A DNA stretch of 46,687 nucleotides from Clostridiales bacterium (lineage in GTDB: Bacteria > Bacillota > Clostridia > Saccharofermentanales > Saccharofermentanaceae): NCBI GenBank assembly GCA_017617525.1, contig JAFZWA010000025.1, positions 1 to 46,687 of the forward strand, given 5' to 3'. The stretch's first letter is position 1, and each line of letters opens with the position of its first letter. The translations under genes were made by a program, and so were the position numbers. The notes under the pieces are model-generated. The model was not told the DNA's origin and searched no databases. It saw only the letters and a list, made by a program, of their open reading frames with translations. Shown here piece by piece: positions 17,908 through 31,457 of this stretch.

Positions 17908-19704
17908 TTATGACGGGATATCGTCGATGTACTTTAATCCTTCCTCATGGAACGTATAGGAGTACTTTCCGATATTGCTGCTGATGAATTCCTGGTAGTT
18001 ATCCATACGGATAAAGCTGTTTACGCGGTCATACCATTCCGGATTCGGAGATGCCTCGACATAGAACAGGATCAGACAGTCATATTCTCTCTGGAGCAGG
18101 ATCTTGTCGCCGGGCTTTCTTTGCGGATCGAAGATCCATTCATCGATCTCGGCGGGATTCTGTCCCGGATACAAAGATGTCTGCTGCGCGGCTCTCATCG
18201 AACCGTCCATAAGTTCGTCCGCATAAGTGGTCTCGAGAGTGATCATGCTCGCTTCGTCCGTAATGCTGTCGAAGATCGTCTGGGAAAGAACGAGGATATC
18301 GCTTCTCGGAACGCCAGGTGTGCCGTTTTCTTCATCTTCCATATTGATGTAGAAGAAGCGGACATTTCGGAGCGGTTCTTCCTGACGTGTGCGCTCGACG
18401 AAACAGAAGACGAGAGGGAATCCGTAATCGTCCGGAATGATGACACAGTCACCCGGCTGGCGGGAAGTGTCGAACAACCAGTTCCTCCATTCGGTATCGG
18501 TCACCTCAGAGTAACGGACTTTCGCGTGGAGCGTGGAATCCGGAACCAGAAGTCTCTGCTGCATCTCGCCGGAGAAATGCTCGGCCGCGACGGACTCGAA
18601 CTTCGTCTGATCGCCGGCTGTGGCGTCGATGATCTGCTGCGCGTGAATGTTCGCTGTCTTGACGTAGCTGTCTTCACGCTGCTCGAATGTGATACGGATC
18701 ATGCGGTAAGAAACCAGGTCGTAAGAGTTTCTGGAATCCTGATATGCCTGCTCTGCCTGTTCCGGCGTCGCTTTCAGCTCCTCCAGCTTCTGATGACCGG
18801 AGTAATCCTCGGCGAAATAGACTTTCGGAAGGATGGAAAGGATCTGGCTCTTACTGACGTAAGGACCGAAAGTACCCTTGATGTATGTGTCCAGATCGAC
18901 ATGGATCGCGTCTGCTTTGGTCTTGAGCCAGTCGACATAAGCCTGCGCACGGTCTTTGTGATCCTGTGTGATGGAATAACCGTGAGCGATGGCGTCGTCA
19001 TAAAGCATATCCGTGGCCTGGATCTCTTTTGCGGTAACATCCAGGAAGTATTCGCGATAGGTGGCGAATCCGTTCTCGCCCGGTGCCTGGAGCATGGCTT
19101 CGGTGTTTTCCTTAAAGATATCTACACCGTTTTCCAGAAGCACATAGTGATACATGAAGCTGAACTCCGCGTTGGATACTTCACGGTCACCGACGGTGAG
19201 AGGACTGCTCATACGCTCGTTGAGATTGCCGAGAGAAATGACCGACCAGATCAGGATCAGAAGAGCGATTACGGCCATGATGATCAGGAACATTCTCGGC
19301 TTCCAGTTCATCTTCTTTCCGCGCTCCGTAGGCGTCGCGTCTGAAGGCTTCGTGGAGATCTCGGAGAAAAGGGGAGCGTCCGGATCGTCATTATCGATCA
19401 CGGTATGGATCTCGTGCTTTCCGAGTTCCATGGTAACCGGCTCGACCTCGACCCAAGGTTCTTCTTCGGCTTCGTCGATATTGAAAAGATCTTCCGACTC
19501 ATCGATCATGTCCGGGTCATCAAGAAGATCCGGATCATTCGCGTCGTAAAGCACTTCAGCTTCATCCTCGATCAATCCGTCCGCGACATCATCCGCGGAA
19601 GACAGATCTTCCACGTCCGGCGCTTCCTGCTCGAAAGGCACTTCCTGCATGTCGTTTCCCGGCAGACTATTTATATCTTTTTCGTTTTCACGTCTCTTTT
19701 TCAT
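17908..19704 (-). CDS. membrane-anchored SurA/PrsA-like foldase with acidic cytoplasmic domain
   Basis: The 598-residue protein starts at ATG 19704, 11 bases after AGGAG. Residues 1-135 are strongly acidic (runs such as DEAEVLYDANDPDLLDDPD) and should be cytoplasmic. One transmembrane helix spans about 136-158, and about 440 extracellular residues follow. These contain a SurA-N-like helical part (FATYREYFLDVTAKEIQATD; DHKDRAQAYVDWLK) and a degenerate parvulin-like part (FESVAAEHFSGEMQQ..., WLFDTSRQPGDCVIIPDDYGFPLVF). The same pattern repeats near the C terminus (WIFDPQRKPGDKILLQREYDCLILFYVE). A peptidyl-prolyl isomerase or chaperone role in folding secreted proteins is likely, but catalytic residues are not clearly conserved. 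It lies downstream of the YidC fusion on the same strand. Confidence 0.6.
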   Translation of the reverse strand: MKKRRENEKDINSLPGNDMQEVPFEQEAPDVEDLSSADDVADGLIEDEAEVLYDANDPDLLDDPDMIDESEDLFNIDEAEEEPWVEVEPVTMELGKHEIHTVIDNDDPDAPLFSEISTKPSDATPTERGKKMNWKPRMFLIIMAVIALLILIWSVISLGNLNERMSSPLTVGDREVSNAEFSFMYHYVLLENGVDIFKENTEAMLQAPGENGFATYREYFLDVTAKEIQATDMLYDDAIAHGYSITQDHKDRAQAYVDWLKTKADAIHVDLDTYIKGTFGPYVSKSQILSILPKVYFAEDYSGHQKLEELKATPEQAEQAYQDSRNSYDLVSYRMIRITFEQREDSYVKTANIHAQQIIDATAGDQTKFESVAAEHFSGEMQQRLLVPDSTLHAKVRYSEVTDTEWRNWLFDTSRQPGDCVIIPDDYGFPLVFCFVERTRQEEPLRNVRFFYINMEDEENGTPGVPRSDILVLSQTIFDSITDEASMITLETTYADELMDGSMRAAQQTSLYPGQNPAEIDEWIFDPQRKPGDKILLQREYDCLILFYVEASPNPEWYDRVNSFIRMDNYQEFISSNIGKYSYTFHEEGLKYIDDIPS

Positions 19705-19813
19705 AGATTCATTTGCTCCTGAGCAAGCATTAGAATTCCTCAATATTTACTCTAACATAAAAGACAGGTGAAAACTATTTCGGTAACGTTACAGAACAGC
19801 CATAAAAGCCCGC

Positions 19814-22621
19814 TTATTGAACTCCGACGGTCTCCCAGTTATCCTTATCGAAAAGATCCTGGCCGGTAAGCGAGCACCAGAGACCGGGGGCGAATGTGTT
19901 TCCTTCGTTGAGGGATGCCTCCCACTTATCCGTATAGAAGACGTACAGCTTCTCGGCGTCTTTCGGGGATGTGTCATCGAGTCTGGTTCCCGTAAAAGGA
20001 TTGACCGGCGAGTCGATGATGCCAGAGAGCGCCAGGGAAGGGGTATCCGCGTTTGTCATGAATGTGTAGTCCGTGGCAAAAGCACCGTTACTGTTAAAAT
20101 CCTTCACAAGGAGAAGCGCGTTATAGACCATGGCATCTTCCGGGTTGAAGTCGGTCTCATCGTTCCAGGTTCCTCCGAAACGCATGCTCTCGAATTGTCC
20201 GAGGCTCTGTCCGTGGTCGGAAACGATAATGATCCTCGTATTGTCGTAAAGCCCCTCTTCACGCAGATAGTCGAGCCATTTTCCGATCTGGATCATGGCG
20301 CACATGTTTGACTGGTAATGCGCCATCAGGTAGGCAGATCCCACATTGATGCTCTCTCCGTTATAGGTCAGCCGGTCCTGATGTGTAAGGTCATATTCGG
20401 TGTTGTCGATGATCAGCGCGGGCTCATATTCCGGCTCGGAAAGAAGAGCGACGTTGTGCGTCATGCTGTTAGTGAGCATGAGGAAATGGTTCGAATCGTC
20501 ATCGGTGGGATTCGTCATTTCCGGGTACGCGGTAAGTGAGTAATATGAGTCCATAAATTCCGTGTTATAGCCGGTCGACTCGCTCATGCTGCTTGTGCGC
20601 TGTACGGATGTCAGACTGTCGTTCGAGAAATAGGTGCCTTCCTGATACGCTGTGTCCTGCAGGAAAAGCGGCATCATCTTCATGAAACTGTAGCAGAAGA
20701 AGTTTCTGCGCCAGATCAGTTCTTTATCGGCGTTGTCGGTCTCAAGGTCGCGGAGCTGGCCGTGCTCGGTATTGTAAGCCTTGATCTGCGGATAGTCGTC
20801 ATAGATCGACAGGTCCGGGATATTGCTGTAACCCGCGTATGGCGGATCGCATACCGTAACATCGAAGCCGCCTTCAGAGAATACGACAGGCATGACCGTA
20901 AGCGCCTCGTTATGCTTGTCCACCATCTTTTCGTCTTTTCTTTTGTTCATCTTCGCAGGCGTATAGTCATATCCGCCGAAAAGCTCCGGCGCGCCGGCGA
21001 TCGTGTTCGCTCCCAGAGAGAGCGTGTTCGGATACCAGGTGAACCCGGAGAACTGCGTTTCAAGTTCGGGCTTTTCCTGGAAGATGTAAGGCAGATACGG
21101 GCTCAGACCTCGGTCGACCATAAGGACGACTACGTTCTGCCCGTTGCGGCTGAGCGTAAAAGAAGGCTCCTCTGTCGTCTGATGCGAAAGCACTGCCTTG
21201 ATCTGCGGGAGTGCGCGGTAGATCTTCACGCTGTTGAAAACTCCCATTCCGAGAACACTCAGAACGAGTACCGGATAGATGAAAGTGACGACTTTGCGGA
21301 ACTTCATGTAGATCTGGAAGAGAAGGACAGTTGAGACCAATACCACAATGGTGTTGATGAGAAACTCAGATGCGGGGATGCGGATCGAGAACACAGCATA
21401 GTGAAGCTCGGAAGTCAGCATTCCCAGTCCTTTTCCGAAGAGGAAGTAATCGATCGCTCCTACGATGGAGAAGATCCATACCGCACAGGAGATATTCTTT
21501 CGGATGCTTCGGCTTCCCAGATAGTAAAGGAGTCCGAGCCAGATCACGAAGAATCCGGTCGAAAGAAGGAGTGACGCGACCAGATGCCAAAGCGGAGAAC
21601 GATAGTAGGAAACAAGGACAAATTCTCCCGGAGAAGAACGTATTACTTCGGAAGGAATAAGAAGTCCCGTCAGAAGAGAAAGGAAGATCGCGCCGAAGAT
21701 AAAGCACTTATTGTGCGACTTTGCATCCTTATCTTCAGCGGCTTTTATCTTCTTTGCTCTGACGGTATTATTCGAGTGCGAACCGAGCTCTTTGTCAGGC
21801 AGCATACGGATCACGGGGATCAGAAAGATAAGCGAGAGCGCGAGCAGGATCGACCGATAGGAAGAGTCTCCGTCAAAGAGCACGAGGGCGTAGAAAAGAA
21901 TGGCTGCGGTGATCAGTGAATAAGCGATACCCGCGGCGACCTTCGGATTCGGAAGCGAGGCAATGATATTTTTGACCAGAGAGAACAGATTGTTCAGTGT
22001 CCAGTAGATGACGAGACCGCTCGGAGAATTGTAGAGCAGTACAAGGAAGATCAGCGCCATACCGTGAAGCTGCAGTCTGTCCTTCAATGACTTGCCTTTA
22101 GAATAGATCTCGCTGGAAATGACGTTGATCAAGGTCATCAGGATCGGAAGAAGGTTGATCGAATGACCGCCGACGGAAAGGAGCTTGTCCGGCGCGCCCA
22201 GGTCCGAAAAACATAAGAAACGGTAGCCGGAAAGCGGAGCCAGATTCGAAAGGAAATGATATGCGGCGATGAAGAACGGTATCTGAAGCAGGAGAGGAAG
22301 AGAACTTCGCAACGCGTAGATCGGCTTATAACCGTTCTCCCGGTAATATGCCTGGATCATCATATAGCGCTCATCGCCGTGGAAAGTCTTCTTGATGTGA
22401 GAAAGGAACGGAGCCATCTGCTTTTGGCGGTCGGCCTCTTCACGCTGGATCGAGTCCGCGCGTTTGTAAAACGGAAGAAGCAGGAGATTCACAGCCAGGC
22501 TCAGTGGGAAGATCGCCCATCCGTAACTTTTGAGAATAATAAAGGAGAAACCGTAGACCACCTCGATCACGATCTCCAGAGGGAAAATTAGCAATTGATA
22601 GAGCAATTGACCGAAAGACAT
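19814..22621 (-). CDS. YidC/Oxa1 insertase fused to an alkaline-phosphatase-superfamily (LtaS/sulfatase-like) domain
   Basis: The protein has 935 residues. Residues 1 to about 230 are a YidC/Oxa1 core. It includes SYGWAIFPLSLAVNLLLLPF, a coiled cytoplasmic hairpin with FHGDERYMMIQAYYRENG, LRSSLPLLLQIPFF with the likely groove arginine, and NSPSGLVIYWTLNNLFSLVK. About five more helices follow (230-480). The C-terminal extracellular part (about 490-935) resembles LtaS-like phosphotransferases and sulfatases. D503 (VVVLMVDRG) is a metal ligand, T540 (GANTIAGAPELFGG) the probable nucleophile, MTHN a likely histidine site, and D802/H803 (IIIVSDHGQS) metal ligands. A normal YidC ends after its core, so the fusion is notable. 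The fused enzyme may transfer phosphoglycerol or modify a polymer at the insertase. It is divergent from two YfhO genes. Confidence 0.8.
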   Translation of the reverse strand: MSFGQLLYQLLIFPLEIVIEVVYGFSFIILKSYGWAIFPLSLAVNLLLLPFYKRADSIQREEADRQKQMAPFLSHIKKTFHGDERYMMIQAYYRENGYKPIYALRSSLPLLLQIPFFIAAYHFLSNLAPLSGYRFLCFSDLGAPDKLLSVGGHSINLLPILMTLINVISSEIYSKGKSLKDRLQLHGMALIFLVLLYNSPSGLVIYWTLNNLFSLVKNIIASLPNPKVAAGIAYSLITAAILFYALVLFDGDSSYRSILLALSLIFLIPVIRMLPDKELGSHSNNTVRAKKIKAAEDKDAKSHNKCFIFGAIFLSLLTGLLIPSEVIRSSPGEFVLVSYYRSPLWHLVASLLLSTGFFVIWLGLLYYLGSRSIRKNISCAVWIFSIVGAIDYFLFGKGLGMLTSELHYAVFSIRIPASEFLINTIVVLVSTVLLFQIYMKFRKVVTFIYPVLVLSVLGMGVFNSVKIYRALPQIKAVLSHQTTEEPSFTLSRNGQNVVVLMVDRGLSPYLPYIFQEKPELETQFSGFTWYPNTLSLGANTIAGAPELFGGYDYTPAKMNKRKDEKMVDKHNEALTVMPVVFSEGGFDVTVCDPPYAGYSNIPDLSIYDDYPQIKAYNTEHGQLRDLETDNADKELIWRRNFFCYSFMKMMPLFLQDTAYQEGTYFSNDSLTSVQRTSSMSESTGYNTEFMDSYYSLTAYPEMTNPTDDDSNHFLMLTNSMTHNVALLSEPEYEPALIIDNTEYDLTHQDRLTYNGESINVGSAYLMAHYQSNMCAMIQIGKWLDYLREEGLYDNTRIIIVSDHGQSLGQFESMRFGGTWNDETDFNPEDAMVYNALLLVKDFNSNGAFATDYTFMTNADTPSLALSGIIDSPVNPFTGTRLDDTSPKDAEKLYVFYTDKWEASLNEGNTFAPGLWCSLTGQDLFDKDNWETVGVQ

Positions 22622-22712: not shown

Positions 22713-22748
22713 TGAACGCCAGGCTCCCGTGCGTATTCGTTTCCTATG

Positions 22749-22757
22749 TGGTACAAT
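22749..22757 (+). promoter_or_regulatory. promoter of the YfhO operon (extended -10)
   Basis: TGGTACAAT lies 57 bases before the YfhO start codon. The in-frame ATG at 22746 falls within this element, so it cannot be the translation start. Confidence 0.5.
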
Positions 22758-22814
22758 GGTGCTTGCGGAATTTTTATTCCTATATTTATATATCAGGAGT
22801 TTGGGACAAAAGAC

Positions 22815-25649
22815 ATGCGACCTTCAAACAAACGCTTCATGCGTAAGTTATCGGAACGTCAGTTTCACATATATTCATTCTTCATCCCGGTATTCATCAT
22901 GACCGCGATCTTCGCGATCCTGCAGGTACACCCTTTCGGTTCCGGCGAGAACATGATCCTGACGGTCGACTGCTATCACCAGTATGCCCCGTTTCTGATG
23001 GAACTTCGTAACAAGATCCTTCACGGGGACAGTCTGTTCTTTTCCTGGAACGTCGGTATGGGAACAAACTTCTGGGCCGTCTTTGCCAACTACAGCGCGA
23101 GCCCTCTGAATCTTCTTGCCGTCTTTTTTCCTGCGAAATATATCGGCGACTGTGTCGCTTTACTGGCGATTATCCGCTGCGGTCTTACCGGTCTTTTCAT
23201 GTCCTTCCTTCTTACGAAACTCGATAAGAACAGAAAAGATCTTCTTCTGACCGCGTTTTCTTCTTTCTACGCCCTCTGCGGTTGGACGATCTCCTATTTC
23301 TGGAACATCATGTGGCACGATGCCGTAGTGCTCCTTCCGCTGATCGTGCTCGGCCTGATCAAGCTCATGAAAGAGAAGAAGCCGCTTCTTTACTGCCTCT
23401 CTCTTGCAATCTGTCTGATCTCCAATTTCTACTCCGGCTATTTCGTATGCCTGTTCCTGATCTTCTACGCGCCGATCCTTTATGTGTCCATCACGGAAAA
23501 GATCACGCTTAAGAATTTCTGGTCCGCGGTCTGGCGCTTCGGCGCGTATTCCCTGATCGCGGGCGGCCTGTCGGCATTCCTTACGCTGTCGACTTATATC
23601 ACGCTTCAAAAGTCTTCCGCTACCGGCGGCACTTTCCCGAAACAGTTCTCGGTCACGAATGATCTTTTCGATTTCATCAGCCGCTTCCTCGTCGCGCCGA
23701 ACCCGAACATCCGTGACGGTATGGCCAACGTATACAGCGGCATTTTCGTCGCGATGCTGATCCCGCTGTTCTTCCTTTGCAAGAAGATCCGTCTGAGAGA
23801 GCGAATCGCATACGGCGTCGGACTTGCGATCATGTACGTAAGCCTCAGCAGCCGTATGATGACATACATCTGGCACGGCTTCCATTTCCCGAACCAGATC
23901 CCGTACCGTCAGGCGTTCCTTATCTCCTTCATGATCGTGATCATGGGTTATAAGACGCTTCGTAATCTCGGTACTTTTACGAAAAAAGAACTTATTGCTC
24001 CGTGCCTTTGCATGATCGCCTATCTGATCCTCTACGAAAAGGTCGGAGAAGGACAGGAAGGATATCTCGCGATCTGTATCTCATTTGTATTCCTGATCCT
24101 CTACACCGCGATCATGCGTGTGATCGGTGAGAGAAAGAAGAGCGCGATGTTCCAGCAGATCCTTCTGTTCTGCGTCCTTTGCGCGGAACTGGTCGCTTCG
24201 ACATTCGCTACCGTAAGCCTCGTTGCCGCGCACGAGAGCTTTACCGGATGGGATTTCTACGGCTCCCACTACGACGACATCCAGACACTTAAGGACGAGT
24301 CCGAACTTAAAAACGAGTATGGCTTTGAGCGTTCGGAGATCTATCCGGCCTATATCTGTAACGAGCCCGCTCTTTACAACATGAAGGGCATCTCGATCTT
24401 TACGTCTACGGCCAGAGAGAGCTTCGTCAAATTCATCAAGAACCTCGGATTCCACAACAACGGTATCAATAGCATGCGTAACTTCGGTATGACGCAGGTC
24501 ACGGGTACATTGTTCGGTGTAAGGAATATGTTTGATCTCTACGCGAGCTCTCCGATCCCGAACGGTTTCGAGGAAGTCGAAAATGATCTGGGCATCCGCC
24601 ACTTCGTCAACAAGGACTCTCTGTCTCTCGGCTACATGGTCGACGAGGCGATCCTGGAGTATACGATGAACCAGACATCCGTTCCGTTCCTTTCCATCAA
24701 CGCTTTTGTGAAGAGCATGGGTATCGAAAAAGATATCTATGAGCCGATCGAACTGAATTTCGATATGACGGAAGGCGTAAAGGAAGGCGGCGGTGTTCCG
24801 AGAACCGGTTATAAGTACTCTTTCGAGAACAAGAGCGCGGCGACGATCGTGTTTACTCCTGATACTGAGGCCGTAAATGACGGCGACCATCTGTATCTGT
24901 ACCTCGTATCGGCAGATGCCGCGAAGGTCACGATCTCCGATCAGCAGACGGTTCCTTTCGAAACAAAAGAAACAAAGATCAACGCGAAGACATACCAGAT
25001 CGTTGATCTCGGATATTACGAAGAAAGCTTCTCCAAGGTCATCACTTTGGACTTTAACGATGATGACCTCAACGGCAATCTCTGGGTACAGTGCGTACGC
25101 CAGGAAGAGTCGGCATATCAGGAGATGCTCGAAAAGCTCAGTGATGAGCAGCTGTTCGTCAATTCTTATGACTCGACGCACGTCGAGGGTACGATCACGG
25201 CAAAAGAAGACGGCGCTCTCTTCCTGACGATCCCTTATGACGAGAGCTGGGTCGCTACCGTAGACGGTGTCGAGGCCGAGATCCTGCCTGTCGATGACGC
25301 GTTCATGGCGATCCGTGTTTCCGCAGGTCAGCACTCCATCAAGCTGGAGTACTTCCCGGCGAAGTTCGGAATGTGCGTAAAGATCTCCGTTGCGTCGCTT
25401 ATCGTTCTGATCGTCTTTACGATCATCCGCCGCATCATGGAATCGCTCGCGATCAAAAAACGTCTCGAGGAGTCCGAAGATTCCGAGTTCGATGTAGACG
25501 AGGAGGAAGAGAATTCCGAATCCGTTGAAGATAACGCAAATGAACCGAATTCCGAAGTCGAAAAGGATCCACAGGAACAATCGACAGAAGAAGGTTCGGA
25601 ATCTGAAACCGAAGAAGCCGGCAAGCCGGAAGAAGCGGAGGAATCATGA
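22815..25649 (+). CDS. YfhO-family membrane glycosyltransferase (1)
   Basis: The 944-residue protein has a polytopic N-terminal half of about 12 helices, typical of GT-C/YfhO proteins that glycosylate lipoteichoic acid or related surface polymers with undecaprenyl-linked sugars. The first outer loop reads LTVDCYHQYAPF then GDSLFFSWNVGMGTNFWA, and keeps the aspartate expected at the GT-C catalytic site. An extracellular beta-rich domain precedes the last helix (about 860-885). The cytoplasmic tail of about 65 residues is strongly acidic (EEEENSESVEDNANEPNSE). Start: ATG 22815; AGGAG is 15 bases upstream, rather far, but no better codon exists after the promoter. It overlaps the next gene by 4 bp. 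Confidence 0.8.
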   Translation: MRPSNKRFMRKLSERQFHIYSFFIPVFIMTAIFAILQVHPFGSGENMILTVDCYHQYAPFLMELRNKILHGDSLFFSWNVGMGTNFWAVFANYSASPLNLLAVFFPAKYIGDCVALLAIIRCGLTGLFMSFLLTKLDKNRKDLLLTAFSSFYALCGWTISYFWNIMWHDAVVLLPLIVLGLIKLMKEKKPLLYCLSLAICLISNFYSGYFVCLFLIFYAPILYVSITEKITLKNFWSAVWRFGAYSLIAGGLSAFLTLSTYITLQKSSATGGTFPKQFSVTNDLFDFISRFLVAPNPNIRDGMANVYSGIFVAMLIPLFFLCKKIRLRERIAYGVGLAIMYVSLSSRMMTYIWHGFHFPNQIPYRQAFLISFMIVIMGYKTLRNLGTFTKKELIAPCLCMIAYLILYEKVGEGQEGYLAICISFVFLILYTAIMRVIGERKKSAMFQQILLFCVLCAELVASTFATVSLVAAHESFTGWDFYGSHYDDIQTLKDESELKNEYGFERSEIYPAYICNEPALYNMKGISIFTSTARESFVKFIKNLGFHNNGINSMRNFGMTQVTGTLFGVRNMFDLYASSPIPNGFEEVENDLGIRHFVNKDSLSLGYMVDEAILEYTMNQTSVPFLSINAFVKSMGIEKDIYEPIELNFDMTEGVKEGGGVPRTGYKYSFENKSAATIVFTPDTEAVNDGDHLYLYLVSADAAKVTISDQQTVPFETKETKINAKTYQIVDLGYYEESFSKVITLDFNDDDLNGNLWVQCVRQEESAYQEMLEKLSDEQLFVNSYDSTHVEGTITAKEDGALFLTIPYDESWVATVDGVEAEILPVDDAFMAIRVSAGQHSIKLEYFPAKFGMCVKISVASLIVLIVFTIIRRIMESLAIKKRLEESEDSEFDVDEEEENSESVEDNANEPNSEVEKDPQEQSTEEGSESETEEAGKPEEAEES

Positions 25650-28387
25650 ACGTCTTCCGCAAAGACAATCTGATCTCATGGAAAGAAACAAGAACGAAGA
25701 TATGTCTTCTTGCGTCTTTTTTGCTGCCGGTCGTTGTACTTCTTCTTGTGGCGTACAAATTCAAACTGTACCCGTTTACTTCCAACTGCCTGATCACCGA
25801 ATCCATGCAGGAAACGTATCTTCCCGTAGTGACCGAGCTTCGAAGAAAACTCTTCGCCCGCGAGTCCCTGTTCTACACATGGAATGTCGGTGGCGGCGCG
25901 AACTTCTGGGCATGGATCGGCGCTTATGCCATGAGTCCTTTTACTCTGATCTATCTACTGTTCCCGGTAAGTAGAATCGCGCAGGCCACAGAGATCATTT
26001 TTGTTCTGAAGGCAGCGACGGCTTCGCTCTGCTTGTTCCTGATGCTCTGGAAAAAAGAGAACGTCGTTTCGCCGATCAGCGTCGGACTTTCTACCGCTTA
26101 CGGTCTTAGCGCTTACGTTCTTACCTATTCACAGCAGCCTTGGATACTGGATACGGTCATCTTGCTCCCGCTTTTGATCCTGACACTTCACCAGCTGATC
26201 CTCGGCAAAAGGAACTGGGCGTTCGCGATTACCTGCGCGCTGGTCGGTATCACCTGCTGTCAGGCCGGGATCTATATGCTGTTCTTTGTTGTCGCGATCT
26301 TCCCGCTTCTTTACCTTCAGGCCCGTTTTGACGGAAAAGAACTTCCCAAGTTATCGGAGATCATCAAATATTTCTTTATCTATCTGTGCATCGGCGTCGC
26401 GCTTTCCGCCATCGTGTGGGTCCCGTACATCCGCGCTCTTGGACAGACGGTCCCGGGCCATCAGACTCTGGACATCTTCGAAGATCTCAAGGCCGATATC
26501 AAGACATGGGATTTCATCGAGCGGGCAGCATTTTCTCCGTCGCTGATCTTCCCGTCGGACTCCGTGCAGGATCCTTCCGTATACTGCGGCATCTTCACGA
26601 TCATCCTTGCAATCCTGTATGGTCTTTCTTCCAAGATCCGATTCACCGAAAAGCTTTATTCCTATTGCGCGATCGTCGTGATCTACGGCACCATCGCGTT
26701 CCGTCCGACCCGCTTCATCATGAACGGATTCCACTATTCGATCGAAGGTGAGTTCCCGCAGACGATACTGATCTCGTTCCTTCTCGTCTTTATCGCCGGA
26801 CGACTTCTTTCCCGCGGAATACTCATTGAAAACAGAAATCAGCTTTGGTTTGCCGCAGGACTCCTGGCCACTTTCATGACGCTCCGCGCCGCCATCTCCG
26901 ATACCGCTTCGTACGCGTCCTTCGCCGTATACATGGCGATCGCGCTTTTGATCATTTACTTTGCTTCGACATATAAGCTTCACACTTCAAAGAGCAACGA
27001 AACTCCTTTCTGGATGGCGGTCATCGCCCTTGCCATGGTCGTTGAGTCGGGTCTTTCTTTCTATGGCCCGATCAAGGAAAAGTACTGGCATCAGGTTGCT
27101 CAGAGGAACATGCTCTTCGCCGATACTTCGGAAGGATTTGAGCTGACTCCCGAAACGATCGAAGAAGTGAAGAATAACAGGGTCTATCAGATCGACAACT
27201 CTGTGCTCTATAAAGAGTCGGATCCGTCTAAAACAGAATTACTCCGCTCGAAAAGCACTTTCGGACAAAATGGGTCTTTCATGCTCGTCGAGGATCAGAC
27301 CTCAGACAATTACGGACTTCTTTATGGCATTCCGTCGCTTTCTTCCGATTCCTATCTGACACCGAAGCGTTACTCCGAAGTGCTTCGCATGCTGGGAATC
27401 AACAAGAACACCGACGGCACGAAGATCATCCCGCGTTCGGGAACAAGGATCACGGATCTGTTCCTGAACCTTTGGACCTCAAAAGCCGAAAACATTACTG
27501 CCGCTGAAAAAGAACTGGCGGAATCCCTTTACTCAAACGGTTACTTCCTGACGACCCCGAATGTATTTGAAGACATTTTCGTTTCGGATGACCCGTTTGT
27601 GGTACAGAATAACCTCGCTTATCAGCTCGCTTCGGTCAAGCCCTTTACGAAAATGAGGATGGAGACCATTGATACGGATAACATCAGTCAGAGTGACGAC
27701 GGTTCTTTCCGCGCGGTCGAAAAGGACAAGCGCGCGGTGATCGAACTTGAGTCCGAGGACTTCTTAAGCTCTATTAATATTCCTATATATATATGTTGCA
27801 CCAGCTCCTGCGCGGTTGGTATCGATGTTGAACTCGAGGATATCGAAGGCAACGTTAAGGTGATCGATCGTAAGTCAAACGTAAGCGGAGCCATCATCAA
27901 TGTCACAAACGGAGAGACGATCAACAGAAGATTGAGAGTCGTAGTAAATATTTCCATGACTGACGATAAGGATTTCAAAGTCAGTGTCGTTACGGCTGAC
28001 CGTGAGAAGCTGTCATGGATGGAAGAGATGATGAAGAACAACGCGTTTTCGATCACATCCCATAAGTCCGACTCTATGGAAGGTACGATCAACGCGACTT
28101 CTTCCGGCGAAGTGGTATGGGGCATTCCGTTTGACAGCGGCTGGTCCGTTTCCGTCGACGGGAAAAGAACCTATACTTTTGCCGCGTATAAAGCTTTCCT
28201 CGGAATCCATATTCCGACGGGCACTCATGAGATCAAGCTCACTTACACAACTCCGGGATTCGTCCTCGGCGCGTGTGTGTCCACGGGAGCGCTGCTCATG
28301 ATGAGTTTCCTTGCCGTGATGAGTAAACTTCCGAAAAAGAAGAAAGAGGAAGAGACAAAAGAAGAGAAAGAGGACGAGAAAGCATGA
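25646..28387 (+). CDS. YfhO-family membrane protein (2), divergent paralogue
   Basis: The 913-residue protein has the same architecture as the preceding YfhO gene, which it overlaps by ATGA. The landmark SLFYTWNVGGGANFWAWIGA aligns with the first paralogue. In the first outer loop it has ITESMQETYLP where the paralogue has TVDCYHQYAP; aligned back from the shared ELR, the aspartate is replaced by serine with a glutamate next to it. It ends in a charged Lys/Glu tail. A partner subunit, a changed specificity or loss of catalysis are all possible. GGAGG before the start supports active translation. Confidence 0.75.
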   Translation: MNVFRKDNLISWKETRTKICLLASFLLPVVVLLLVAYKFKLYPFTSNCLITESMQETYLPVVTELRRKLFARESLFYTWNVGGGANFWAWIGAYAMSPFTLIYLLFPVSRIAQATEIIFVLKAATASLCLFLMLWKKENVVSPISVGLSTAYGLSAYVLTYSQQPWILDTVILLPLLILTLHQLILGKRNWAFAITCALVGITCCQAGIYMLFFVVAIFPLLYLQARFDGKELPKLSEIIKYFFIYLCIGVALSAIVWVPYIRALGQTVPGHQTLDIFEDLKADIKTWDFIERAAFSPSLIFPSDSVQDPSVYCGIFTIILAILYGLSSKIRFTEKLYSYCAIVVIYGTIAFRPTRFIMNGFHYSIEGEFPQTILISFLLVFIAGRLLSRGILIENRNQLWFAAGLLATFMTLRAAISDTASYASFAVYMAIALLIIYFASTYKLHTSKSNETPFWMAVIALAMVVESGLSFYGPIKEKYWHQVAQRNMLFADTSEGFELTPETIEEVKNNRVYQIDNSVLYKESDPSKTELLRSKSTFGQNGSFMLVEDQTSDNYGLLYGIPSLSSDSYLTPKRYSEVLRMLGINKNTDGTKIIPRSGTRITDLFLNLWTSKAENITAAEKELAESLYSNGYFLTTPNVFEDIFVSDDPFVVQNNLAYQLASVKPFTKMRMETIDTDNISQSDDGSFRAVEKDKRAVIELESEDFLSSINIPIYICCTSSCAVGIDVELEDIEGNVKVIDRKSNVSGAIINVTNGETINRRLRVVVNISMTDDKDFKVSVVTADREKLSWMEEMMKNNAFSITSHKSDSMEGTINATSSGEVVWGIPFDSGWSVSVDGKRTYTFAAYKAFLGIHIPTGTHEIKLTYTTPGFVLGACVSTGALLMMSFLAVMSKLPKKKKEEETKEEKEDEKA

Positions 28388-29449: not shown

Positions 29450-29528
29450 GATAATTAAGTATAACCAAAAAAATGTAACTTAGAAGAATTGATTCAAAAA
29501 TTGAGACAGAAAATTGGAGGCAACAAAG

Positions 29529-31457
29529 ATGAAGTTGTTACAATTAGATAAGTTTCACAAGAAGAACAACAAGCGAGGCGGCATGCTCGTCCTCGTTCTG
29601 ATGATCTTCGGTGTTTCACTTATCCTCATTTCATCTGCACTGTCGATCACAATGTCCAGCCGTTCCCGTTACTATGTTGACGTGGAGCGCAGCCAGGAAA
29701 GACTGACTCTTACCTGCGCAGCTGAGGCAGTAATCGATGCCATTCAAGCACAGGAACTTACAGACGCCCAGCTTCAGCAGATGTCGTCAAACACTCACGC
29801 CGTGTACAATATTACCGGTTCGACTAAAACATCTGTGAAACAAGGCGCTGCTGCAGCAGATGGTAGTGCTAATATCGCTCCTGGTCTTTCGACCAGCGCG
29901 TCTAATGGTACGACCATGAAGGTAAAACCTGTTACGGGATCACAGGATCTCATCCTTGACTTCCAGACGAAGATCATCGTTACAGGCGATAATACCAAGG
30001 CTGAGGGCCTCAGAGTATACCTGAAGTACACACCGCCGGCCCCGACACCGTCTGTTTGTGAAAACATGGTTACTTGCGGTGAGGATGGTTCTTATAACGA
30101 CATCCCGAAGCTCGAAGTAAACGGTACAGAATCCTTTACAGTATTCCATGGTAACGTAGAGCTCGCATCCGGTTCCGGTTCCTACATCTACAACCCGACA
30201 GTTATTACCGGTGTTGTAAAGGGTGGTGCAGGTACGGTCTACCACAACGACGTTGTTTTCTACGGACCGAATGCAGGTATCGACGTAGTTTCCCCTGGTA
30301 ACGGTGTCACGATCGCTTCCGGCGAAGGTGACTTCTACTTCCTGGGTATTACTATGGGTACTAACTCCTCAAATCAGAGCGTATTCAGAAACTCATCCGG
30401 TTCCGCAGCTGTTCCGAATGGATTTAACGTAAAAGCTGATGGTGCTTACTTCTACAAGGCCAACATGACAGTTAATGACTGGACAATGCGTGATAGCGGC
30501 GCTGGTACAACATACTGGGTATCCGGTTCCGGAAGTAGCCTTAACCGTACAAATAACTGGGGTGGTAACATCGCGATCAAAGATGGCGGTCAAGTAAACT
30601 TCGCTTCTGGCGCTGGTACGGTTTATAACTCCATCTCTGAAGTTAGTGATACTACTACTCAGAACACTTACAATCGTCTGAAGAACAAAGCGGATTACTA
30701 TCTGTCGAGTTCTGCACTTAAAGCAGCTGCTGAGAGAGAAATCCCGACTGCTGCGGAACAGCAGGCGATCTACGGTGCATATAGAACAGGTGAGACGATC
30801 CCGAATATCTCCGGTGTTCAGAATCTGCATGGTAATAAGGCTTACAAGCTTACGGGTGGTACCTATTCTTATGGTCGTGTTCGTATCAATCTTGCTGAAG
30901 GTGATACAACGATCTATGTCGCAGGAAGCTGCACATTCAAGTCGTTCTGCTTTGAAGTATCCAATGCTACTACTCATAAGCTGACATTCGTTCTTGATTA
31001 CGGCGTATCCTTCAAGTTCGTTGATCAGCCTGATTTCTGGAGCAGCGTTACGGATCCTACAACCGGAACAAGTTATCCGTACGTTCAGGGTATCATTGCT
31101 TGTGACGTACGTAACGGATATGCCTTCAACAATCCGCACGGTGGTGACCTCCGTGGTAAGGAAGGTGAAGAGCCGGCAGCAATCGTTGTAGGTCTTGGTA
31201 AGAACGTATTCGAGGCTGGTCGTGCACAGGTTGTAGATGCTTACATCTCTCTGGCCGGTAAAGGCACAGACGCTAGTACGGTAACTCTTAAGGATAAGGT
31301 TCACTTCTATGGTCGTTTTGAGGCTGTAAAAGTTGACACAGGTAACTCTGATAACCTTAAGATGCAGAGCTGCCCGAAGCTCGGTGAAGGACACAACACA
31401 CCGACTCCGTTGACAACTTGCTACACCGCAGAGAAGTACGAGTATTACACTGCGTAA
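29529..31457 (+). CDS. large PilX-like pilus-associated protein
   Basis: The 642-residue protein begins at ATG 29529, 8 bases after GGAGG; a TTG at 29514 is part of that site. The N terminus has NNKRGGMLVLVLMIFGVSLI, then SSRSRYYVDVERSQERLTLT and CAAEAVIDAI. This is the PilX-N pattern: a Gly before a hydrophobic helix, no Glu5, then a helical spine. About 560 residues follow, rich in Gly, Ser, Asn and Thr, with short beta-type repeats (for example GSGSYIYNPTVITGVVKGGAG) that suggest a beta-helix. It is probably a surface-exposed minor pilin or adhesin at the pilus tip. It lies on the strand opposite to the other pilus genes, with terminator-like hairpins after it. Confidence 0.6.
   Translation: MKLLQLDKFHKKNNKRGGMLVLVLMIFGVSLILISSALSITMSSRSRYYVDVERSQERLTLTCAAEAVIDAIQAQELTDAQLQQMSSNTHAVYNITGSTKTSVKQGAAAADGSANIAPGLSTSASNGTTMKVKPVTGSQDLILDFQTKIIVTGDNTKAEGLRVYLKYTPPAPTPSVCENMVTCGEDGSYNDIPKLEVNGTESFTVFHGNVELASGSGSYIYNPTVITGVVKGGAGTVYHNDVVFYGPNAGIDVVSPGNGVTIASGEGDFYFLGITMGTNSSNQSVFRNSSGSAAVPNGFNVKADGAYFYKANMTVNDWTMRDSGAGTTYWVSGSGSSLNRTNNWGGNIAIKDGGQVNFASGAGTVYNSISEVSDTTTQNTYNRLKNKADYYLSSSALKAAAEREIPTAAEQQAIYGAYRTGETIPNISGVQNLHGNKAYKLTGGTYSYGRVRINLAEGDTTIYVAGSCTFKSFCFEVSNATTHKLTFVLDYGVSFKFVDQPDFWSSVTDPTTGTSYPYVQGIIACDVRNGYAFNNPHGGDLRGKEGEEPAAIVVGLGKNVFEAGRAQVVDAYISLAGKGTDASTVTLKDKVHFYGRFEAVKVDTGNSDNLKMQSCPKLGEGHNTPTPLTTCYTAEKYEYYTA

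Follow-up and report, generated by a model that had tools for sequence, protein, structure and literature searches.

Closest described systems

Several described systems lie close to the gene analysed here, which is found on contig JAFZWA010000025.1 of a Clostridiales bacterium (assembly GCA_017617525.1; the whole 46,687-nucleotide stretch analysed is called the window) and encodes a 935-residue fusion of a YidC/Oxa1-derived membrane module with an alkaline-phosphatase-superfamily (AP) domain. Its family shares with the YidC/Oxa1/Alb3 insertases a 60KD_IMP core scoring above cut-off, but departs from them by the Asn that nearly all members carry in place of the groove Arg, by five more helices and an extracellular enzyme, and by its position in a separate clade. 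Like LtaS, GacH, EptA, PptA and PbgA, which we group as membrane-anchored AP-superfamily proteins, the fusions have helices followed by an extracellular AP domain with Asp, Thr and Asp-His residues, and PbgA provides a structural match. Unlike them, the fusion falls far under the LtaS equivalog cut-off, carries a YidC module and usually stands beside a PF04464 gene. PF04464 is shared with the TagF/TarF CDP-glycerol glycerophosphotransferases (CDP, cytidine diphosphate), yet this partner, called TagF-like below, lies far under the TarF cut-off and has an N-terminal helix with the motif YIDPGTG.

Two routes of surface decoration provide the second point of comparison. The Lic-1 route relies on CDP-choline and LicD; the route through PptA, an AP-superfamily phosphocholine transferase for pilin, has phosphatidylcholine as its proposed lipid donor, and the authors, in the consulted part of their paper, see no evidence that both coexist in one species (PMC10434233). 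Some fusion operons resemble Lic-1 (LicABCD) in having LicC-like, choline-kinase and EamA or BCCT transporter genes, but have a TagF-like gene and a YidC–AP fusion in the expected place of LicD, which such genomes may still carry at another site. Others resemble the phosphonyl tailoring (Pnt) clusters with PntC in that a PepM-PntC-type fusion, Ppd and PhnW stand beside the gene, whereas the Pnt clusters have LicD-like phosphotransferases and glycosyltransferases nearby, and the words 'YidC' and 'sulfatase' are absent from the main text of that source as far as it was available (PMC6697681). How phosphonates are attached to the cell surface was left open by a 2019 study, judging from the portion consulted.

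The gene company of the fusions, set out below, suggests a role in adding choline-phosphate or phosphonate groups to the cell surface. Full-text searches, which were judged by titles and the starts of abstracts and covered few subscription journals, found no paper on a YidC–AP fusion among the records listed, and the domain pair may presumably be listed automatically in domain databases.

A recurrent fusion of two modules

The gene and its parts are as follows.

19814..22621, minus strand: YidC–AP fusion gene, 935 amino acids, stop codon included; one of seven genes with a fused YidC module in the genome
21947..22621, minus strand: YidC/Oxa1-derived membrane module, residues 1-225 (60KD_IMP, TIGR03592 and sequence matches to solved YidCs)
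22487..22489, minus strand: codon of Asn45, at the place of the YidC groove arginine (alignment with fusions and ordinary YidCs)
21701..21946, minus strand: residues 226-307, two extra helices and a K/R-rich stretch, predicted to be cytosolic (predicted model)
21185..21700, minus strand: residues 308-479, five predicted transmembrane helices (predicted model)
19817..21184, minus strand: residues 480-935, predicted extracellular alkaline-phosphatase-superfamily domain (D503, T540, H722, D802, H803)

A preliminary description of this DNA, made from its letters alone, had read a YidC core, extra helices and an extracellular AP-superfamily domain in one 935-residue frame, and domain searches and a predicted model, of low confidence at residues 277-284 of the K/R-rich stretch, confirmed this layout. 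Of the domains it expected, 60KD_IMP was found (91.7 bits against a curated Pfam cut-off of 35), as was the AP/sulfatase fold in the predicted model, but the LtaS equivalog of NCBIfam reached 16.3 bits against a cut-off of 970. TIGR03592 gave 94.9 bits (cut-off 84.3), and nine further fusions that were scanned scored 75.7-88.4 bits with 60KD_IMP. A shorter subfamily of about 870-900 amino acids (L009 10390-13011; G006, G007, G008 and others) apparently goes from the YidC core to the five-helix part without the two extra helices, an absence that would preserve membrane-crossing parity.

The genome of the window (2.47 Mb, 95% complete) holds eight 60KD_IMP matches, namely one ordinary frame of 353 amino acids and seven fusions, six complete and one cut by a contig end. 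The missing part of the cut gene may be an AP-only piece at the end of contig C57. Identity to the window copy is 43-51% for the five other complete copies, and strong fusion matches occur in 27 of 59 related genomes, including all 23 of the genus. An assembly error or frameshift joining two genes, considered at the outset, is ruled out by the seven genes with a fused YidC module.

With the AP domain as query, GTDB species genomes yielded at least 571 related stretches, from which 79 loci were kept as the best by score, a set biased to close relatives. Both modules share a single frame in 72 of these 79, so that the fusion is a recurrent family and not the product of a local error; five are cut by a contig end (L041, L061, L088, L093, L105), and in two the frame is broken, the YidC part lying immediately upstream (L062, L089). 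Bacillota account for 75 of the 79, going by their record titles, and rumen and gut samples are a frequent source of the many carrier bacteria. When genomes were sampled evenly, matches to the AP domain turned up in 12 of 391 from the class and 3 of 398 from the phylum; the matched frames have 847-966 amino acids, apart from one of 632 that a contig end truncates. No unfused close relative of the AP domain appeared at E <= 1e-20 in these 391 and 398 genomes, with up to four candidates scored per genome and the frames not individually examined for a YidC module. In L062, L089 and L104, all from uncultured genomes, the fusion gene is split into two or three frames, as pseudogenes or by sequencing errors.

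Gene company of the fusions

Neighbourhoods were compared at 85 loci (the best-scoring 79 and six of the window genome), reaching five genes to either side and with families named from representatives; L153, L154 and L155 are apparent duplicates of L035, L032 and L034 and were counted once. A PF04464-type protein with the YIDPGTG helix is encoded within five genes of the fusion at 59 of the 85 loci; within the same reach are LicC/kinase-type genes at 26, PhnW at 10, Ppd-type genes at 9, PepM at 6 and YfhO at 5. At 58 of 81 loci the TagF-like gene is the fusion's immediate neighbour on its strand, in 73 pairs with a median gap of 4 bases, and no pair stands on opposite strands. All three TagF-like partners that were scanned pass the PF04464 cut-off; against the TarF equivalog the partner scores 15 and 25 bits, with a cut-off of 550. 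Genes for activating a surface group (LicC-like, choline kinase, PhnW, Ppd, PepM) lie within five genes at 28 of 81 loci, of which 10 are of the phosphonate type and 18 have LicC/kinase genes only; at the 30 loci with five or more genes on both sides, 25 have a TagF-like gene and 14 an activation gene.

Two operon types are seen repeatedly. The phosphonate type is exemplified by L144 (fusion, TagF-like, LicC-like, PhnW recognized by eye, PepM-PntC, Ppd) and, in the window genome, by the C57 locus (LicC-like, PhnW, PepM-PntC, fusion, TagF-like, fusion piece); the Lic-1-like type by L074 (LicC-like, choline kinase, EamA transporter, TagF-like, fusion) and by L071, which has a BCCT transporter. 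The gene runs of L010 (2738-3628 and 4822-6117) and L144 (7612-8484 and 9657-10952) each contain two distinct nucleotidyltransferase-type genes, one LicC-like with a winged-helix-like N-terminus by eye and one a PepM fused to a cytidylyltransferase-like domain. At L156 (11644-14121) and L162 (12206-14647) a PepM-PntC-type gene is followed by an iron-containing alcohol dehydrogenase, called by Pfam in L162 and by eye in L156, where PhnW is expected. The alcohol dehydrogenase belongs to the logic of the hydroxyethylphosphonate pathway and PhnW to that of aminoethylphosphonate, and this gene order suggests the former product.

The association extends to whole genomes. A TagF-like protein (E <= 1e-20) is present in all 27 genomes with a strong fusion match and in one of the 32 without; that one, G056, carries a YidC–TagF fusion. 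Phosphoenolpyruvate (PEP) mutase exceeds its cut-off in 24 of the 27 and in one of the 32, and in 21 of the 25 genomes that have it, it lies 1.2-2.7 kb from a fusion, LicD having no match on the same contig. G034 has LicD 1.7 kb from PEP mutase and no fusion match, and in G017 PEP mutase sits at a contig end with neither fusion nor LicD there. LicD had no match in the window genome, and across the 59 genomes one of 48 LicD matches lies within 10 kb of a fusion.

The same parts are also joined in other ways. YidC is fused to PF04464 in five genomes (L141, L159, L160, L161, L162), with both Pfam cut-offs passed; an AP-domain gene stands directly beside this YidC–TagF fusion in L141, L160 and L161, the AP match of L159 is weak and distant, and in L162 Pfam found no AP domain. 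L162 continues with Ppd-type, LicC-like (by eye), PepM-PntC and iron alcohol dehydrogenase genes. In L165, genes for a PepM-nucleoside-triphosphate transferase, Ppd, a LicC-like protein, PhnW, PF04464 and two AP proteins follow one another, and no YidC was recognized by eye among its nine open reading frames of at least 180 amino acids. These arrangements indicate that the same functions occur as YidC–AP with TagF-like, as YidC–TagF with AP, or as unfused TagF-like and AP; because YidC is attached to the inner enzyme in some lineages and to the outer one in others, its task would lie between the two.

A proposed relay across the membrane

We propose a two-part system for phospho- or phosphono-decoration of cell-surface glycans that takes LicD's role in Lic-1 pathways, a proposal to which we give somewhat less than even chances. 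Cytosolic cytidylyltransferases would make donors of the CDP-choline or cytidine monophosphate (CMP)-phosphonate type; the TagF-like protein, tethered to the membrane by its YIDPGTG helix, would charge a membrane lipid or a lipid-linked carrier with the group on the inside; the YidC-derived module would let the loaded intermediate cross the membrane; and the extracellular AP domain would take the group onto Thr540 and transfer it to a glycan. We infer that the AP part is a transferase rather than a hydrolase and that its acceptor is a glycan; likewise inferred are an intermediate on a lipid, the transfer direction and a translocating role of the YidC-derived module. A relay is the simplest reading because in some operons donor-making genes stand beside the AP enzyme, with TagF-like and YidC-derived parts between. 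More tentatively, and with lower odds, the YidC fold would have been repurposed as a dedicated translocator of a lipid-linked phospho- or phosphono-group, making the fusions a new class of surface-decoration machine.

The fusion and the TagF-like protein provide two specific enzyme candidates, encoded in operons together with genes of the CMP-aminoethylphosphonate pathway. Should the YidC fold have been repurposed in this way, an insertase would have turned into a flippase for lipid intermediates, and the missing transfer steps of bacterial phosphonoglycan synthesis would be supplied. The Arg-less copy on the outer enzyme and the related module on the inner one form a natural test of the YidC fold as a cellular lipid translocator, and as some carriers are named isolates, including Butyrivibrio sp. 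AC2005 and MB2005 (L076, L090), whose loci combine a LicC/kinase-type gene, a TagF-like gene and the fusion, both the enzyme candidates and the translocator idea can be tested.

A number of observations weigh against this proposal. Activation genes lie within five genes of the fusion at just 28 of 81 loci, and adjoining the window fusion itself there is no TagF-like and no activation gene. Because the 59 genomes are related, their co-occurrences do not count as 59 independent events. LicD is found somewhere in 20 of the 27 fusion genomes and directly upstream of the fusion in the phosphonate operon of L157, while in G023 and G027 the distance from PEP mutase to LicD (0.6 and 7 kb) is shorter than that to a fusion (10 and 22 kb); strict mutual exclusion of fusion and LicD was dropped because of these three cases. 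The L165 operon, being without YidC, indicates that the module is not obligatory. The identity of the module comes from sequence matches, and structural alignment barely covers residues 1-292; the structures nearest to the AP part are those of hydrolases; and E. coli YidC keeps insertase activity without its groove arginine, according to the part of the source available (PMC8920935).

The AP domain and polymer synthesis

In the predicted model the AP part adopts an alkaline-phosphatase/sulfatase fold, and the PbgA structure aligns with it from residue 293 on, across the helices and the AP domain. PDB sequence searches with this part gave mostly short matches around D802, and the fold assignment therefore rests on the predicted model. 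The metal ligands (D503, D802/H803) and candidate nucleophile (T540) named in the preliminary description are unchanged in all 87 sequences compared, and the helix and strand positions of these Thr, Asp and Asp-His residues fit in the model; their roles in catalysis and metal binding are those we assume from the superfamily.

These features would also suit an enzyme of the LtaS or GacH kind, with phosphatidylglycerol as substrate for building or capping a glycerol-phosphate polymer, the TagF-like protein as primer and the phosphonate genes as bystanders. The AP fold, the conserved Thr and the PbgA-like helices speak for it, as do the membership of the partner in PF04464, a family of teichoic-acid glycerophosphotransferases, and the YfhO genes that adjoin some fusions. 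YfhO proteins of other bacteria act on lipoteichoic acid. We nevertheless consider this explanation unlikely: the LtaS equivalog score is very far from its cut-off, the recurrent activation genes around the fusions belong to choline-phosphate and phosphonate pathways, and the ordinary LtaS role could be filled by two other PF00884 proteins of the window genome (frames of 866 and 759 amino acids). A profile comparison with one of these two produced no match (hhalign probability 0.5). The physical fusion described in the preliminary description is supported, as is a tie to the cell surface; that tie runs most often to a PF04464 enzyme and, at some loci, to activation genes of the CDP-choline or CMP-phosphonate type, and not to teichoic-acid polymerization in general.

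The YidC-derived module

HMMER aligns position 45 of the fusions with an Arg of solved YidCs, presumably the T. maritima and E. coli proteins. The residue is Asn in 92, Ser in two and Thr in one of 95 fusions of at least 840 amino acids, and Arg in 28 and Asn in one of 29 ordinary YidCs from related genomes (31 loci, less two without a hit). A positive charge at this site is described as strictly conserved among YidC homologues, in the consulted part of the source (PMC8920935), and is absent from all 95 fusions. In an unrooted tree without outgroup (33 fusion, 29 ordinary and five YidC–TagF rows), YidC–AP, YidC–TagF and ordinary YidC form three clades, the fusions standing apart from ordinary YidCs; all five YidC–TagF modules have Lys at the groove site. 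A separate ordinary yidC, in frames of 341-409 amino acids, is present in all 27 genomes with a strong fusion match. The check for another yidC advised in the preliminary description was therefore positive, in the window genome as elsewhere, and the notion that the fusion might be the genome's sole yidC is ruled out by the ordinary 353-residue frame. Judged from sequence, the altered groove and separate clade fit a reuse of the YidC fold, without proving that insertase activity has been lost. In vitro, phospholipids are scrambled by purified E. coli YidC, according to the part seen of a preprint (PMC10491306).

Two further explanations concern this module, and their odds and those of the explanations for the AP part are not mutually exclusive. 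It might be a working, dedicated insertase or chaperone for the fusion's own AP helices or for partner membrane enzymes, as its clear homology to YidC and the tolerance of E. coli YidC for loss of the groove arginine would allow. This seems improbable to us, given that Arg or Lys is missing from the groove site of all 95 fusions, that each of the 27 fusion genomes has an ordinary yidC, that PF04464, to which the module is fused in five genomes, should need no membrane insertion, and that AP genes without a fused YidC exist (L165). The groove Arg is essential in YidC of B. subtilis and YidC2 of S. mutans and dispensable in E. coli; YidC2, which requires it, has a Trp at the neighbouring site, according to the available part of the source (PMC8920935), and the fusions retain that Trp in 87 of 87 sequences, by our reading of which positions are equivalent in the alignment.

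Alternatively, the module could be an inert anchor or docking platform for the TagF-like and AP parts, with another protein flipping any intermediate. Fusion to either partner would suit a scaffold as well as a translocator, and L165 has the remaining genes without YidC; many module residues are, however, invariant across 87 sequences, apparently more than an anchor would need, and we rate this explanation no higher than that of a working insertase. The interpretation in the preliminary description is partly supported. It had offered two choices, coordination of insertion with polymer synthesis or an insertase fold reused as an enzyme platform, and the second fits better because the groove Arg/Lys is missing, the fusions form their own clade and all 27 genomes with a strong fusion match have an ordinary yidC too. 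That the AP part is instead a hydrolase (a phosphodiesterase, phosphonate-ester hydrolase or sulfatase) removing groups from host or own glycans is very unlikely, since Thr occupies the candidate nucleophile site in 87 of 87 sequences, where sulfatases use a formylglycine derived from Cys or Ser, the protein is membrane-embedded with biosynthetic neighbours, and a common fold does not fix the reaction.

Neighbours of the window copy

Three genes adjoin or lie close to the window fusion.

22746..25649, plus strand: YfhO-family gene, divergent neighbour (Pfam YfhO, 543 bits)
25646..28387, plus strand: second YfhO-family gene (Pfam YfhO, 263 bits)
17908..19743, minus strand: 611-residue protein, following the fusion after 70 bases on its strand (nothing in Pfam at E <= 1)

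The YfhO pair was given weight in the preliminary description, and it does characterize the window paralogue and three of its four nearest relatives (L032, L033 and L035 adjoin YfhO; L034 does not), but not the family as a whole (5 of 85 loci). The window paralogue may work with these YfhO glycosyltransferases; it may use another donor, or serve a polymer that YfhO glycosylates. The 611-residue protein is possibly a co-transcribed partner of this paralogue, and its family is present at four of the 85 loci. Its N-terminus is acidic, a single membrane helix seems to be present, and the C-terminal part is large; by eye the protein resembles an extracellular foldase. Near the YfhO genes, a 647-residue frame (29514-31457, plus strand) has no Pfam match above cut-off.
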